Shown: piece by piece, positions 20,838-28,322 of the stretch
How positions within the stretch are numbered: the stretch's first letter is position 1
Layout of the letters: each line of letters begins with the position of its first letter
IMG/VR virus record: IMGVR_UViG_3300037493_001565
Location: 1 to 28,344 of that record
Origin: a virus
Length of the DNA: 28,344 bases
Reading direction: 5' to 3' (one strand)
The notes under the pieces: model-generated
Told to the model about the DNA's origin: nothing
The model's database searches: none
The model's input: only the letters and a program-made list of their open reading frames with translations
Made by a program: the position numbers and the translations under genes

Positions 20838-21383
20838 TCAACCTCCGGATACTTTAGAGAGCATGGCCTGCATGTTGGCCAGCTCAGCGTCAGACAAGTT
20901 CTTGAGGTCCACCGCAGCCATTGTGATGGGTCCTCCGCCAGCACCCGTGTGCTCTTGTGTGACCTTGTCGCCGTAGACGCGAGGTTTGAGTTTAGAAGCG
21001 GCCCACTTCCTGGCATCAACCCTGAGCCGGTTACGAGCCACAGCGGTTGAATCTAACACCAGCTTGACGTCTTCGCCTTCGTATTTGGCTTCAACGCATG
21101 TTTCATCACTGATTGCGATAATCTCATCAAATAAGAAATCTGCGCGTTCTTCGCGTGCGCGTGCGTACATCGCGGCACGGTCAGGGTTTTTGTAAATCCA
21201 GTCAGACACCGTTTTATACGGCAGACCCCGACCCTCGCAGAAACCCGCCATGTGACCGCCCTTGGCCACGTGCTCGCAGAACTCACCAATAGAACCCGCC
21301 GCGTCGTAAAACGGGTCGCGCTTGGGTTTGATGTCAGCGACCATTTGGGTTGGTGATTTGACAGCGTGTTTATTTGTAGCCAT
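20838..21383 (-). CDS. terS: Terminase small subunit
   Basis: A 181-residue protein directly upstream of the TerL cluster. The N-terminal half contains a helix-turn-helix-like segment (about residues 45-70: HMAGFCEGRGLPYKTVSDWI) followed by the helix ARAREERADFLFDEIIAISD, the arrangement in small terminases of the P22/Sf6-like type. LDSTAVARNRLRVDARKWAA and SKLKPRVYGDK match the family's central oligomerisation region. It recognises phage DNA and stimulates TerL. The C-terminal tail is NLSDAELANMQAMLSK, likely the TerL-contact helix. Its ATG abuts the TAA of the GIY-YIG gene with no gap. Confidence 0.85.
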   Translation of the reverse strand: MATNKHAVKSPTQMVADIKPKRDPFYDAAGSIGEFCEHVAKGGHMAGFCEGRGLPYKTVSDWIYKNPDRAAMYARAREERADFLFDEIIAISDETCVEAKYEGEDVKLVLDSTAVARNRLRVDARKWAASKLKPRVYGDKVTQEHTGAGGGPITMAAVDLKNLSDAELANMQAMLSKVSGG

Positions 21384-21929
21384 TTAAATATTACTCCATA
21401 TTCCAAACAAGTCAGGCCGTTTAGCCGCAGCGTAACGAAGTTTTGTTTTTACTTCTTCCTGCAAACAGCCCATGTTCAACGCACGGCTAAGATGAAGTTT
21501 CAAATAGTGAATACGTTTACGAACAGGGTCGGCTTGAATAGCGGCTGACACTTTGCGTCCGTTGGCTTGTCTAACTTCAACAGGGCACTTGATACTGGCT
21601 CCTATTTTTTGCCGTACTTCCAAAGAACAAAAAGGTTCATCACCACCGTCAGCCAGGTTAAGCATTCTAGGGCTATCTGCACGGTATTGTGCTATCATGT
21701 CCCGTTCAAGCTGACGCCAGTCTCCGATGACTGAAGACAAAACTTTACAAGAAACTTCTTTACCTTCTCGTATCTGTTTTCTCAACCACGTGTACAACGG
21801 GTATGTCCTGACTTTCTCAGCCAGGTGGGTTTTGAACCTTTGATGCACATCGTTCGTTTTACCGACGTACCTTACTTCCCCGTGTTCATCACAAATACCG
21901 TAAATTACAAGTCGTTTTGTTGTAGCCAT
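21384..21929 (-). CDS. GIY-YIG endonuclease (probable free-standing homing nuclease)
   Basis: The product has 181 residues from ATG 21927-21929 (MATTKRLVIYGICDEHGEV). Motifs: IYG (GIY-like), RYVGKT (YIG-like), the catalytic-type Arg in QRFKTHL, Glu in QLERDMIAQY, and the family's LNLADGGDEP. The segment SLEVRQKIGASIK may be a NUMOD-like DNA-binding repeat. A start at 22025 would add 32 residues drawn from the repeat-rich DNA, so I prefer 21929. Such genes cut intron-less alleles or rival phages. It is inserted directly before TerS, a frequent homing target zone. It encodes no other domain. Confidence 0.82.
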   Translation of the reverse strand: MATTKRLVIYGICDEHGEVRYVGKTNDVHQRFKTHLAEKVRTYPLYTWLRKQIREGKEVSCKVLSSVIGDWRQLERDMIAQYRADSPRMLNLADGGDEPFCSLEVRQKIGASIKCPVEVRQANGRKVSAAIQADPVRKRIHYLKLHLSRALNMGCLQEEVKTKLRYAAAKRPDLFGIWSNI

Positions 21930-21960: not shown

Positions 21961-22217
21961 CCGAGCCCGTTACCGAGCCCGTTAAAACCACACTTTACCA
22001 ATAACCAACCAGTTTGAAAGGTCATAAGGCCAAAACTAACGGGTTTATTTTAACGGGTCTCCTTATAGTAAAAACCCGTAAACCCGTTACCCCCCTGACG
22101 AGCTGCGGAGGAGGTAATAATTACCCCTCCTACGCTCATCGAGGGGTCTGGAGAGGGGCTCAACGGGCTCGGTCGAAAACCCAGACCCGTTACCGAGCCC
22201 GTTAAAAAGACCCGTTA
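21961..22217. repeat. CCCGTTA repeat cluster with nested inverted repeats
   Basis: This non-coding stretch holds eight exact copies of CCCGTTA or its complement (21966, 21978, 22037, 22051, 22083, 22186, 22198, 22211) and two one-base variants (22075, 22161). An exact 22-bp direct repeat occurs at 21966-21987 and 22186-22207. Inverted pairs include TAACGGGTTTA (22037-22047) with TAAACCCGTTA (22079-22089), and AACGGGCTCGGT (22162-22173) with ACCGAGCCCGTT (22192-22203). It lies between the primase-helicase and the endonuclease. An iteron-like origin, an operator array or a transcript-processing zone are the candidates. Confidence 0.75.
22098..22141. other. Long imperfect hairpin in the repeat region
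   Basis: The core GGTAATAATTACC (22112-22124) is a perfect 13-nt odd palindrome, flanked by GGAGG on the left and CCTCC on the right with one bulged base. Outside this, GACGAGC pairs with GATGAGC-like sequence on the far side, giving a total span of about 44 nt. There is no T-run on either strand, so it is not a standard terminator. It could be a protein site or structured RNA. Confidence 0.55.
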
Positions 22218-22223
22218 CTTTCT

Positions 22224-24329
22224 TCATACCGCAAACCGCCCATTTTCAATCGAACTGACCACCGCCTCGTCCACCCGCAAATAGTGATCTCGCTGCCCCA
22301 CGGGTTTCTCCAACATCACCCGCACCAGTGACCCGTCGTTGACCAGAGCCAGCATCGCACGCTCTTTACGGTCACGCCCGCCACGCAGCCCGCCCTCGTT
22401 AGCGGTCAGCTTTGAGTAATACGAGGTGGCCCGCCCACCGTCACGCCGCACCAGCTCAATCAGGTCTTCGCAGAGTTTGTTGTAGTCGTCGTTCTCGCGG
22501 GCGTCTTTGTTGTCCTCTTTGAACTGGGCCCGCTCGCCACTCTTAAGAGGCCGTGCAACGGAGTGCGAGAAGTGCACCTCACCCATGGTACCCAGGACGT
22601 TAGGATGCCGCTCTGAGTGGCTCACGAGGTCAAAAGTCAGCTCGGGCCAGCGGGTCGGAAAGCGCACCTTGGTCGCCTTGAGCACGCGTGGTGAGTCAGG
22701 ATGTTCACCGTCTTTGAAGACCGTATACACCCCGTGCGCGTCCCCCGTCCACGCTGAGGCACCCCGTGGGCTCAGACCGTCAGACTCAGCCGAGCCCATG
22801 GCCTTGGCGGTGTGGGCTACTATCAGCAGCGGGAACTCCCCAAAGGACTGCTTTATGAGCGCCATGGCCCTGCCCACCTCAGCGTTGTCGTTCTCGTTCT
22901 CGAGTTCAAGCACCGCGTTGGCTGTGTCTAGCACTACCACGGGCTTGGCCTTGAACACCCCGCCACACGCCATCGCGTTGTCCACCGTCCACTCGGCATA
23001 CTCACCGGCTACCTGCGCCACGACTGCGGGGTCGAGCCGGTGAGCGGGGATAACCCGCACGCGCTGTTCAAAGTCAGCTGAGTTCATTCCGGTAAAGCCC
23101 CACTGTGCCAGGCTGTATATGACCCGCTGAACCTGCACCACGGACTCGGTGATGATGATGACGTTGCGGCGCACGGCGGGCTTCATGGGGTGGTCATGGG
23201 GGCAGAGATGCGCAGCGACCAGGGCCATGGGTATGACCAAGGTGGTCTTGCCCACCCCCGGCGCACCGGCTATAACGTTCACCCCCGTTGACATGAAGTC
23301 ATCGTACAGGAACTCAAACAGCGTCACGGTGCTGGCCCCTGAACCCTTAGTGCGGCTGAGGGCTAAGGGGTGGACGGCTTCCGGTGTGCTCACCAACGGC
23401 ACCTGTGGTATGCCTTGACGCCACGCCCGTGATGAGTCGCGCTCGTCAGCCATGCGGAAGATGCTCAGGTAAGTGCTGTTGCCCGGCTCGTCTAGGTCAT
23501 GCGCCCACTTGTACTCAAACGCCTCCAGGGTGTGGCCGGGCCGAGTGCTGCGTGTAGACCACTCACGGGCTATCTCGTAAGCCTGCCCCTCATCGCTCAG
23601 GCGACGTAGAGCTTGCAGCACTGCGTACCATGTGTTGTAGTCCTCCTCAGGGGACACCACCTTGAGTGCGGCCTTCAAATCCTCGTAGACCTGAGGGGCT
23701 ACCACTATAGAGCCTGAGGACTTGCTGATAGCGTACTTGGATTCCTCCGAGTGGCCCCCTAACACTCCCGGTGCAAAGGTCGGAATGTGGCCCTCGGTCG
23801 GGTTCTTGCCGTCCTGCCACTTGTACACCCCGGAAGGCCCACTCGAGGGCTCCACCAATATATAGCCCTTGTACTTTATGTCCAAGCCCTCGCCCAGCGT
23901 ACCGGGGTAAGCCAGACCCGGTTGGGCTTTGAACACCCGGTGCTCGCCCCCGCCTTGAGTGTTGGCCGTAACTGAGCTGTACAACACCCCGAGGCGTGCC
24001 TCTAGCTGGGTTAGAGTATCATGTCCACCGTTGCGGGGGTCAATGTCTAGCACCACCAACCCGGACTTCTCACAGGCCACCGCAATACCTGCTTGGGGGT
24101 GGGCTGTCCATATTTTGCGAATGACCGCAGGGTCTTTAGTGGCGCTGGTTAGGCCGTAACCGTCAAGGGGCTTTTTGTCCTTGCGGACGGGGAGCACGAA
24201 CCAACCTAACTCGGCATACCGTAGGGCAAAGTCAAGGGGCGTGTCGGTTATCTCCGGATGCTCCTCAACGTGGTCAGCTGTGACTAGCGAGAGCCGTATC
24301 TGTGATGTGTCAAATCCGAACTTAGCCAT
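22224..24329 (-). CDS. Primase-polymerase/helicase fusion (PrimPol + PriCT + RecA-like ATPase)
   Basis: The 701-residue product starts at ATG 24327-24329; a GTG two codons earlier is also possible. Residues about 31-180 are a bifunctional primase-polymerase domain, with D95/D97 in VVLDIDPRN and H130 in GGEHRVFK. Residues about 224-293 look like PriCT (YNTWYAVLQALRRLSDEGQA ... FEYKW). Residues about 340-560 are a RecA/RepA-like ATPase: Walker A GAPGVGKT (355-362), Walker B VVVLD (464-468) and the VAHTAK sensor (504-509). The C-terminus may be a winged-helix-like region. It would prime and unwind the phage genome. It is followed by the repeat cluster, which could be its origin. Confidence 0.87.
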   Translation of the reverse strand: MAKFGFDTSQIRLSLVTADHVEEHPEITDTPLDFALRYAELGWFVLPVRKDKKPLDGYGLTSATKDPAVIRKIWTAHPQAGIAVACEKSGLVVLDIDPRNGGHDTLTQLEARLGVLYSSVTANTQGGGEHRVFKAQPGLAYPGTLGEGLDIKYKGYILVEPSSGPSGVYKWQDGKNPTEGHIPTFAPGVLGGHSEESKYAISKSSGSIVVAPQVYEDLKAALKVVSPEEDYNTWYAVLQALRRLSDEGQAYEIAREWSTRSTRPGHTLEAFEYKWAHDLDEPGNSTYLSIFRMADERDSSRAWRQGIPQVPLVSTPEAVHPLALSRTKGSGASTVTLFEFLYDDFMSTGVNVIAGAPGVGKTTLVIPMALVAAHLCPHDHPMKPAVRRNVIIITESVVQVQRVIYSLAQWGFTGMNSADFEQRVRVIPAHRLDPAVVAQVAGEYAEWTVDNAMACGGVFKAKPVVVLDTANAVLELENENDNAEVGRAMALIKQSFGEFPLLIVAHTAKAMGSAESDGLSPRGASAWTGDAHGVYTVFKDGEHPDSPRVLKATKVRFPTRWPELTFDLVSHSERHPNVLGTMGEVHFSHSVARPLKSGERAQFKEDNKDARENDDYNKLCEDLIELVRRDGGRATSYYSKLTANEGGLRGGRDRKERAMLALVNDGSLVRVMLEKPVGQRDHYLRVDEAVVSSIENGRFAV

Positions 24330-24331
24330 GC

Positions 24332-24640
24332 TCACTCTTCCCCAGTGTCTTCATCAGTCGACTTGTCCTGATAAGGTCGCACCGGGAACAGCGCACACGT
24401 CAGCACCGCGCAGGTCTTTATCTCCTCGCGCTGATAACCACAGCATTGAAGGCACTTAACCCTGATGGCGGTGGAGCGTGTAATCTGGCCAAGCAATGCG
24501 CGCTGGGTGGCGAGTTTGTGTTTCTCGGGTACGCTTTGGTCAATGTAGAGTTGAATCTTCTTCTGCTCTACAGTGGTAGTAATGCGGGCTTCCTTGATGC
24601 GAGGAGCGCGTGTGGGGGCGGGTGAGTTATCAGTTGTCAT
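24332..24640 (-). CDS. Small Cys-rich zinc-finger-type protein
   Basis: A 102-residue protein. A polar N-terminal half is followed by IRVKCLQCCGYQREEIKTCA and VLTCALFPVRPYQDK. The spacing CxxC ... C ... C with a final RPY is a pattern seen in small phage proteins beside replication genes, probably one zinc site. Function is not established; DNA binding or regulation is plausible. Its stop overlaps the possible GTG start of the primase-helicase (GTGA) and lies 2 nt from the ATG I prefer. The leader contains ATATAACCCGAGAAACTT, a looser relative of the leader motif at 27237-27258. Confidence 0.7.
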   Translation of the reverse strand: MTTDNSPAPTRAPRIKEARITTTVEQKKIQLYIDQSVPEKHKLATQRALLGQITRSTAIRVKCLQCCGYQREEIKTCAVLTCALFPVRPYQDKSTDEDTGEE

Positions 24641-27258: not shown

Positions 27259-27351
27259 ATGAAACACCGCCTAATTAATCTGTCTTTCGCGATAGTCTAC
27301 GTTGCTTCTGTCGTTGTTATTTACTTTGACCTGTTTGTCTGGAGACCGTGA
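27259..27351 (+). CDS. 30-residue membrane peptide
   Basis: ATG 27259-27261 follows the leader motif. The product, MKHRLINLSFAIVYVASVVV then IYFDLFVWRP, has a basic N-terminus and one hydrophobic span of about 20 residues, so an inner-membrane peptide with a cytoplasmic N-terminus is likely. Its TGA overlaps the ATG of the PLP enzyme gene (TGATG), and GGAG inside its last codons serves as that gene's ribosome site. It could act as a translational leader or a small host-membrane effector. Confidence 0.6.
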   Translation: MKHRLINLSFAIVYVASVVVIYFDLFVWRP

Positions 27352-28322
27352 TGTCTAACTCTATTTTCCCCACCCTGGCTATCAACCGAGAAGTCTCACA
27401 CTGGGAAGATCACCTCGCTGACCTGACCCCGTTCGAGAACCACAACGGGCTCTGGTTCAAACGCGAAGATTACTTCGCCCCCTTGGGTTACAGCGGGCCT
27501 AACGGCTCTAAGATGCGCCAGCTCATCTGGTACATGAACAAGTTCCGCACCGGCAAGACTCACGTGCTCACCGGCGCGAGCATCCAGTCACCTCAGCTGA
27601 GCATGTCCGCTATCGTCGGTGCGCATTACGGTTTGCCCTCACGGCAGGTCGTTTACAGCAAGCCTGAGAGCATCATGCGGCATATTAACCCCCAAGTAGC
27701 CGCCGGGTTCGGCACCACGTTTGAGTATGCCTCCGGGCCGTACAACCCTATCCTGCAGCGCAAGGTAGCTGAGTTGAAACGTGATGACTCGCTGGTCGTG
27801 GAGTACGGCATCACAGTTGACCACAAGAAGTATGATGCCGAGGTGGTGCGTAAGTTCCACGAGGTCGGTGCTCATCAGGTCAGCAACCTGCCTGACTCGG
27901 TGACCCGGTTGATAACCCCTGCGGGCTCATGTAACTCGCTGACCTCAATCATGTTGGGTTTGAGTCGCAACCCCAACAACGTGCAGGAGCTGTTCACCAT
28001 CGGCATCGGGCCGGACAAGCGCCCCTGGATGCTAGAGCGTTTGGCGCTCATGGGGGTTGACGTGAAGAAACTGCCGTTTGAGTGGAAACACTACAGCCTG
28101 CACGACACCGGCTACTCAAAGTACAGCGACCACTTCAACGGTGAGAGCTATGACGGCATTGACTTTCATCCTACCTACGAGGGTAAGATGTGGCGTTGGC
28201 TCAATAGCGGAGTTACGGGCGACCCCTTGCCTAAAAATGATTCAACTGCATTCTGGATAGTGGGTTCCGCGCCTAAGCTCTCTGTGGTACAACCTTTCTT
28301 TACAACTAAGGGGGTAGCATGA
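27351..28322 (+). CDS. Fold-type II PLP-dependent enzyme (ACC deaminase/cysteine desulfhydrase-like)
   Basis: A 323-residue protein starting ATG 27351-27353. LWFKREDYFAPLGYSGPNGS then KMRQL (residues 34-58) matches the ACC deaminase/D-cysteine desulfhydrase pattern, in which the Lys of GNKxRKL binds PLP; here K54 in NGSKMRQ is the candidate. GASIQSPQLSMSAIVGAHYG (75-94) corresponds to the family's Q-S-N-H segment, with PQ in place of NH. PAGSCNSLTSIMLGL (190-204) fits the phosphate-binding loop. The substrate may be an amino acid or a modified nucleotide precursor; the altered active-site segment argues against plain ACC deamination. The fold call is good, the reaction unknown. Confidence 0.72.
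   Translation: MSNSIFPTLAINREVSHWEDHLADLTPFENHNGLWFKREDYFAPLGYSGPNGSKMRQLIWYMNKFRTGKTHVLTGASIQSPQLSMSAIVGAHYGLPSRQVVYSKPESIMRHINPQVAAGFGTTFEYASGPYNPILQRKVAELKRDDSLVVEYGITVDHKKYDAEVVRKFHEVGAHQVSNLPDSVTRLITPAGSCNSLTSIMLGLSRNPNNVQELFTIGIGPDKRPWMLERLALMGVDVKKLPFEWKHYSLHDTGYSKYSDHFNGESYDGIDFHPTYEGKMWRWLNSGVTGDPLPKNDSTAFWIVGSAPKLSVVQPFFTTKGVA

Follow-up and report, generated by a model that had tools for sequence, protein, structure and literature searches.

The window analysed here is the whole of a 28,344-nucleotide stretch that represents an incomplete 28-kb virus record. On its minus strand, a gene for a PrimPol-helicase (22224–24335, assigned by Pfam, with the C-terminal domain assigned by structure) is followed by a dense array of short repeats (21962–22217), a GIY-YIG endonuclease gene (21384–21929; Pfam E 2e-7) and terS, which encodes an Sf6-like small terminase (20838–21383; Pfam PF20901, E 2e-27) and is the conserved downstream neighbour of the array in this phage group. 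The GIY-YIG gene is inserted between the array and terS and is missing from some relatives, among them L005 and L052. Its reading frame, if drawn from 22025, overlaps the repeats only through an open upstream ATG, and a start at 21929 is likelier; between 21930 and 22025 the open frame runs into the repeats, where AACGGGCTCGGT is read as NGLG. Elsewhere on the minus strand of the window, a partial protein (1–531) is sulfotransferase-like by eye (FLSGIPRSGSTVLAAIL), and two adjacent RCC1-like repeat proteins (555–1733 and 1743–2879; LWSWG..GQLGLG) are possibly virion surface proteins. A 324-residue protein on the plus strand (27348–28322) has no Pfam match at 0.01 and resembles, by eye, an ACC-deaminase-type PLP-dependent enzyme.

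The window contains 13 copies of the word CCCGTTA, where 2.9 would be expected, and none of 100 dinucleotide shuffles reaches this number. Eight of these copies are packed into 252 bp (21966–22217) on both strands, with exact starts at 21966, 21978, 22083, 22186, 22198 and 22211 on the plus strand and at 22037 and 22051 on the minus strand; no 7-mer exceeded five copies per 350 bp when the entire window was Markov-shuffled 30 times. The preliminary description of this DNA, which had reported eight exact copies on both strands far above chance and had proposed counting the 7-mer more widely, is thus borne out as to both abundance and concentration. The near copies that it claimed are also present, and a motif search of the array raises the total to 11 sites, one of them weak (22005–22015). 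Its 22-bp direct repeat with a spacing of 220 bp (21966 and 22186) is real and consists of 22 identical bases within a 33-nt match at 88%, and its perfect inverted pairs are found as the 12-bp pair AACGGGCTCGGT/ACCGAGCCCGTT. The array begins 7 bp past the stop of the PrimPol-helicase gene (22224), in agreement with the placement of the cluster immediately downstream of that gene.

The motif sites are arranged in sets. The set on the PrimPol side (22161–22217, minus strand) contains copies at 22207–22217, 22194–22204 and 22182–22192 (minus), an inverted near copy at 22161–22171 (plus) and a 12-bp perfect inverted pair. The terS-side set (22037–22089) contains a copy at 22079–22089 and a near copy at 22071–22081 (both minus), inverted copies at 22051–22061 and 22037–22047 (both plus), and a short spacer, TACTATAAGGAG, at about 22059–22070 between the copies and the inverted copies. 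An equivalent unit, in which a repeat, a spacer and an inverted repeat follow one another, recurs in relatives. A distal pair (21962–21984, minus) immediately precedes the likely start of the GIY-YIG gene.

The two sets are separated by a GC-rich hairpin (22097–22140, minus) that was absent from the earlier list of repeats, and no other part of the element is so well conserved. Its outer stem, GATGAGC/GCTCGTC, pairs 22134–22140 with 22097–22103, and its inner stem, of the GGAGGGG..CCTCC type, occupies about 22107–22131. An alignment of 22 diverse sequences revealed compensatory changes in all 12 pairs of the two helices, with a covariation score of 0.660 as compared with 0.264 (sd 0.026) for shuffled data and at most 0.222 for slid partners. 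This covariation indicates that the hairpin structure is under selection, whether as DNA or as RNA. The repeats are one component of a larger element. An Rfam scan gave sub-threshold matches only and no known RNA, and an intrinsic terminator was rejected, the sole terminator-like site having a weak tail.

The PrimPol-helicase consists of a Prim-Pol (AEP) domain (residues 37–179; Pfam E 1.2e-28), a PriCT_2 domain (221–296), an AAA_25 ATPase of the RepA/RecA type (344–512) and a C-terminal domain (CTD; about residues 617–703, encoded by 22227–22487, minus). A PDB sequence search and Pfam yielded no family for the CTD, and structure comparison alone gave one. AlphaFold, applied to 31 CTDs (pLDDT 84), places helices at positions 15–45, 51–56 and 68–81 and a beta wing, and the top ranks of a structural aligner were the winged helices of MarR, MecI, BlaI and MepR, with Z scores of about 9 that are modest for a common fold. 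Assignment of the CTD to the winged-helix class is thereby supported, and contacts of the domain with DNA are putative. Residue 642 corresponds to model position 56, the last of helix 2, and residue 654 to model position 68, the first of helix 3, in winged helices the canonical recognition helix. In the window these putative specificity residues are K642 (22410–22412) and R654 (22374–22376).

IMG/VR scans with the PrimPol-helicase and TerS as queries retrieved more than 100 relatives. In about 60 related contigs the same architecture is found between the PrimPol-helicase gene and terS: at least two clusters of a word of about 10 bp, in both orientations, around a GC-rich covarying hairpin. By eye, the order is constant, with direct and inverted copies, the GC-rich hairpin, more copies, and inverted copies around a short palindromic spacer; a TATAAT-like box then usually precedes terS or a small inserted gene. 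CCCGTTA itself is found at this place in just one relative (L059/L069, proteins 98–99% identical). Most relatives carry a standard word, CCGAACGATTA, and others carry CACTTGATTA (L005/L183), AACACGATTA (L027/L088), CGGACTGATCA (L010), CACACGGTTA (L016), a CCGAACGTTTA-like word (L096), CCGGGC(A/T)TTCG (L158/L162) or CTTATTTAGG (L047/L231), with further words in contigs without PrimPol. Absence of the repeats from relatives that keep both flanking genes had been named as evidence against the cluster; the 7-mer is indeed confined to one relative, yet in the others its place is taken by a different word. The comparison indicates that the architecture is conserved, not the 7-mer. Contigs ending before terS or lacking TerL (for example L024, L030, L033, L042, L043 and L054) were left unscored. 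The 101.8-kb contig IMGVR_UViG_3300047121_000347 (L032, L037), with two PrimPol-helicase copies, is a co-assembled pair or a dimer.

The position of the array relative to its neighbours varies. Within the group it is closer to terS, at a median distance of 46 bp in 44 relatives; PrimPol is a median of 877 bp away, and as much as 4.9 kb. It immediately follows the 3' end of the PrimPol-helicase gene in the window, in L005, L052 and L199 and in the distant L356–L358, though not in all relatives. The L212/L218/L232 clade has the array on the opposite side of PrimPol, about 5 kb away, and in L212 the array adjoins an inverted terS. The repeats are clustered in one place of the genome, and in near-complete relatives nearly all copies of the word sit in the array. 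Scattered operators of the stoperator type were rejected, the sites not being spread over the genome.

The exchange of words between lineages is accompanied by changes in the winged-helix domain. When all PrimPol columns were ranked for association with the word over 28 clusters, residue 654 came first and residue 642 second, and with permuted labels two such columns were obtained in 2.6% of cases. Among the 200 columns that are invariant in 34 standard-word PrimPols, only 642 and 654 deviate in at least three of the eight non-standard lineages (in four and five, respectively). The simulated P values, about 1e-4 for the top column and below 1e-4 for both, are somewhat optimistic because the two residues had first been spotted by eye on a PrimPol subset, before the test of all columns. 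R642 and Q654 occur together in 30 of 30 standard-word tree rows, and one or both are changed in six of the eight non-standard lineages; the exceptions, L016 and L096, have non-standard words yet keep R642/Q654. On a PrimPol tree built without the CTD, the word label changes eight times, not fewer than with shuffled labels, which suggests that words changed independently about eight times. Because the labels are no more clustered on this tree than shuffled ones, common descent fails to explain the association.

Two sister pairs display the same correspondence: L183 (Q642, CACTTGATTA) differs from L248 (R642, standard word), and L158/L162 (K654) from L074 (Q654, standard word). The change of R642 to Q accompanies a change from C:G to T:A before GAT, giving (C/T)GAT, in L005 and L010. 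Arginine usually prefers guanine and glutamine adenine. Lineages added after the pattern had been seen, including the marine clade of L236, L239 and L241 (about 47% identity), keep R642/Q654 and have words containing GAACGAT. All columns of TerS, TerL and the DEAD helicase were tested likewise, and none was of comparable strength. These results support the view that the PrimPol-helicase reads the iteron word through its winged-helix CTD. The preliminary description had named this protein and a Cys-rich protein (24332–24640) as possible binders; the covariation of word and winged helix speaks for the former as the probable reader, whereas the gene for the latter is missing beside PrimPol in several array-bearing relatives.

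A profile search with the CTD also found separate small genes that encode this domain only (E 1e-28 to 5e-12). They are always situated between the array and terS: L010 8155–8559, L016 4838–5347, L085 2430–2828, L096 5494–5892, L138 2421–2837, L206 13037–13711 and L225 7928–8350, with two tandem copies of the domain in L206/L026. This position ties the domain family to the array. The presence of such genes explains tblastn matches to PrimPol in L016, L056 and L225 that look split.

Distant PrimPol-helicases (32–39% identity) in beta-proteobacterial genomes have arrays at the 3' end of the gene: nine copies of GGGAACA in a Propionivibrio dicarboxylicus MAG (L356), seven of GGAACGGA in Brachymonas chironomi DSM 19884 (L357) and seven of GGGAACG in a beta-proteobacterial MAG (L358). 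The counts exceed those of shuffles in all three, with inverted repeats or a hairpin between sets. By eye, the gene after the array encodes an HK97-like capsid protein in L357 and a VRR-NUC protein in L358, and neither has terS there. By eye, the array of L351 (39%) and that of the circular phage MW202879 (L363) resemble these, although the counts of their 7-mers are weak. In distant relatives the array thus appears to be linked to PrimPol and not to terS, as an origin would be. No array was found upstream of terS in Roseobacter phages CRP-901/902 (TerL 46–48%) or at the PrimPol of CRP-901, and no clear array after the primase in Pseudomonas phage MR14 and phage TPWB-08.

Taken together, these findings suggest that the cluster is a phage replication origin, in which iteron sets flank a hairpin and are recognised by the neighbouring PrimPol-helicase, a reading to which we assign a probability of about 0.72. 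An iteron-type origin beside the PrimPol-helicase was also the first candidate of the preliminary description, and after comparison it is the best-supported one. From the computational evidence, which comprises the array, the covarying hairpin, the lineage-specific words and the covariation of these words with residues 642 and 654, predicted to act in recognition, we infer binding, melting, priming and origin activity as follows. The CTD winged helix would bind iterons on both sides of the hairpin, and the RepA-like helicase/ATPase of the same protein would assemble there. The duplex might then open or the hairpin extrude, and the Prim-Pol domain could prime on the exposed strands; these last steps are borrowed from pRN1, RSF1010 (PMC4234260) and NrS-1 PrimPol, which primes sequence-specifically at TTTGGTTA (PMC8718748).

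Several features count against an origin. No clear switch in GC skew, for which the preliminary description had proposed to look at the cluster, was found. The AT content of the array is only about 47–55%, and it contains no AT-rich DNA unwinding element; such an element is common in iteron origins and not strictly defining. The variable distance to PrimPol, the clade with the array on the far side and the two exceptions to the word/residue code also count against it.

An operator array for the late (terS) promoter, which would mediate the switch from early replication to late expression with the PrimPol CTD, a stand-alone paralogue or another protein as its binder, is rather unlikely, although the TATAAT-like box between the array and terS or the inserted gene and the adjoining stand-alone winged-helix genes are what it would lead one to expect. 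However, a covarying central hairpin is unexpected for an operator, in near-complete relatives almost every copy of the word belongs to a single cluster, the genes that follow the array in distant relatives are unrelated, and no canonical promoter was scored in the window on the terS strand. Many iteron replicons have such a second, regulatory role for the same site, and control of late transcription may be an additional function here.

The position of the array, close before terS, made TerS the first candidate to be tested as reader of the word. An improbable alternative is a site for the initiation of packaging (pac or cos) that the small terminase would recognise, with repeats flanking a central cut region. 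Its closeness to terS, which persists in L212 despite the inversion of terS and the 5-kb distance to PrimPol, the insertion of GIY-YIG beside it, and the layout of the P1 pac site, where repeats lie on both sides of the cut region, agree with such a site. TerS is nevertheless rejected as reader: a single word is found alongside three TerS N-terminal types that are unrelated (L052; L021/L077; L147), one TerS type occurs with three words (the window, L005 and L052), and in no TerS column do at least three of the other phages depart from a residue that all standard-word phages share. The distant relatives L357 and L358, moreover, keep the array at PrimPol without an adjoining terS. In five near-complete relatives the terminal overlaps are 55–127 bases, the k-mer size of the assembler, and the ends lie off the array, which is weak evidence against cos. 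A cos site proposed from an L060 contig end in the array centre was rejected, as the array is actually near the other end and the ends overlap by 127 bases. Packaging site and late-promoter operator are both less likely than an origin.

A recombination or segregation site of the integrase, telomere or partition type, with a recogniser encoded outside the window, would accord with inverted repeat sets around a hairpin and with a window that covers only half of the genome, but it is very improbable given that the word covaries with the PrimPol winged helix and that no partition or recombinase gene was seen in the neighbourhood of the array. The earlier suggestion of a recombination zone that received the GIY-YIG gene is not needed, that gene being one of several small inserted genes.

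As an origin, the element is best read as functionally like that of P4 alpha, the PICI rep-ori or pRN1, by analogy with these systems. Origins of PICIs and SaPIs lie immediately 3' of pri-rep, and their AT-rich region is flanked by two sets of iterons (PMC6092414). The likeness extends to the position 3' of a primase/helicase initiator, the two iteron sets and the element-specific words, but here the centre is a GC-rich covarying hairpin instead of an AT-rich region, and a complete tailed phage carries the element, with an initiator that joins an AEP PrimPol to a RepA/RecA-type ATPase. In pRN1, a stem-loop of conserved structure and variable sequence is required 3' of the PrimPol-helicase-winged helix gene (PMC4234260). 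A structure-conserved stem-loop near a gene of the ORF904 type is likewise found here; unlike in pRN1, where the helicase is of the SF3 type and neither iterons nor sequence-specific binding were found, iterons flank the stem-loop and the ATPase is of the AAA_25 type.

In phage P4, the alpha protein binds repeats of the origin through its winged-helix domain (PMC4234260). As there, primase, helicase and a C-terminal winged-helix reader are found in one chain and repeats serve as the putative origin, whereas the P4 primase is of the Toprim type, and here a Prim-Pol (AEP), many diverged words and a covarying hairpin are seen. At oriV of RSF1010, iterons are read by RepC, RepA is the helicase and ssi hairpins are primed by RepB' (PMC4234260); iterons combined with a hairpin, and a RepA-like ATPase with a primase, are common to both, while RSF1010 as described there uses three proteins without a fused winged-helix reader and its hairpins are paired and placed differently. 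The domain order Prim-Pol, PriCT, RepA/RecA-type ATPase and winged helix is that of PrimQH-type AEPs, to which the protein is likened by this order; a 2018 survey predicted that the winged helix of PrimQH proteins reads origins (PMC5862659). We found no description of such an element in the open-licence literature.

For a large group of tailed phages that are aquatic and uncultivated, the element offers a candidate origin. It also makes the published prediction on winged helices concrete and testable, as a code of about ten natural words against two recognition residues. So many natural replacements are rarely available for the specificity between an initiator and its origin, and pairing word with residue could help in predicting the origins of related phages and prophages. 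More tentatively, and with the balance somewhat against it, the origin may act as a fast-changing lock and key, the word being replaced repeatedly, every time with compensating changes at two positions of the winged helix, while the stand-alone copies beside the origin would serve as regulators directed at it or as decoys, perhaps in conflict with related phages or satellites over replication.

The arrays of L085/L096 and L099/L100 mix the CGAACGAT and CGAACGTT word types and may be intermediates of word change. In the marine clade of L236, L239 and L241, an extra inverted word pair, GATCGTTCGG .. CCGAACATAT, is situated within the first codons of terS.
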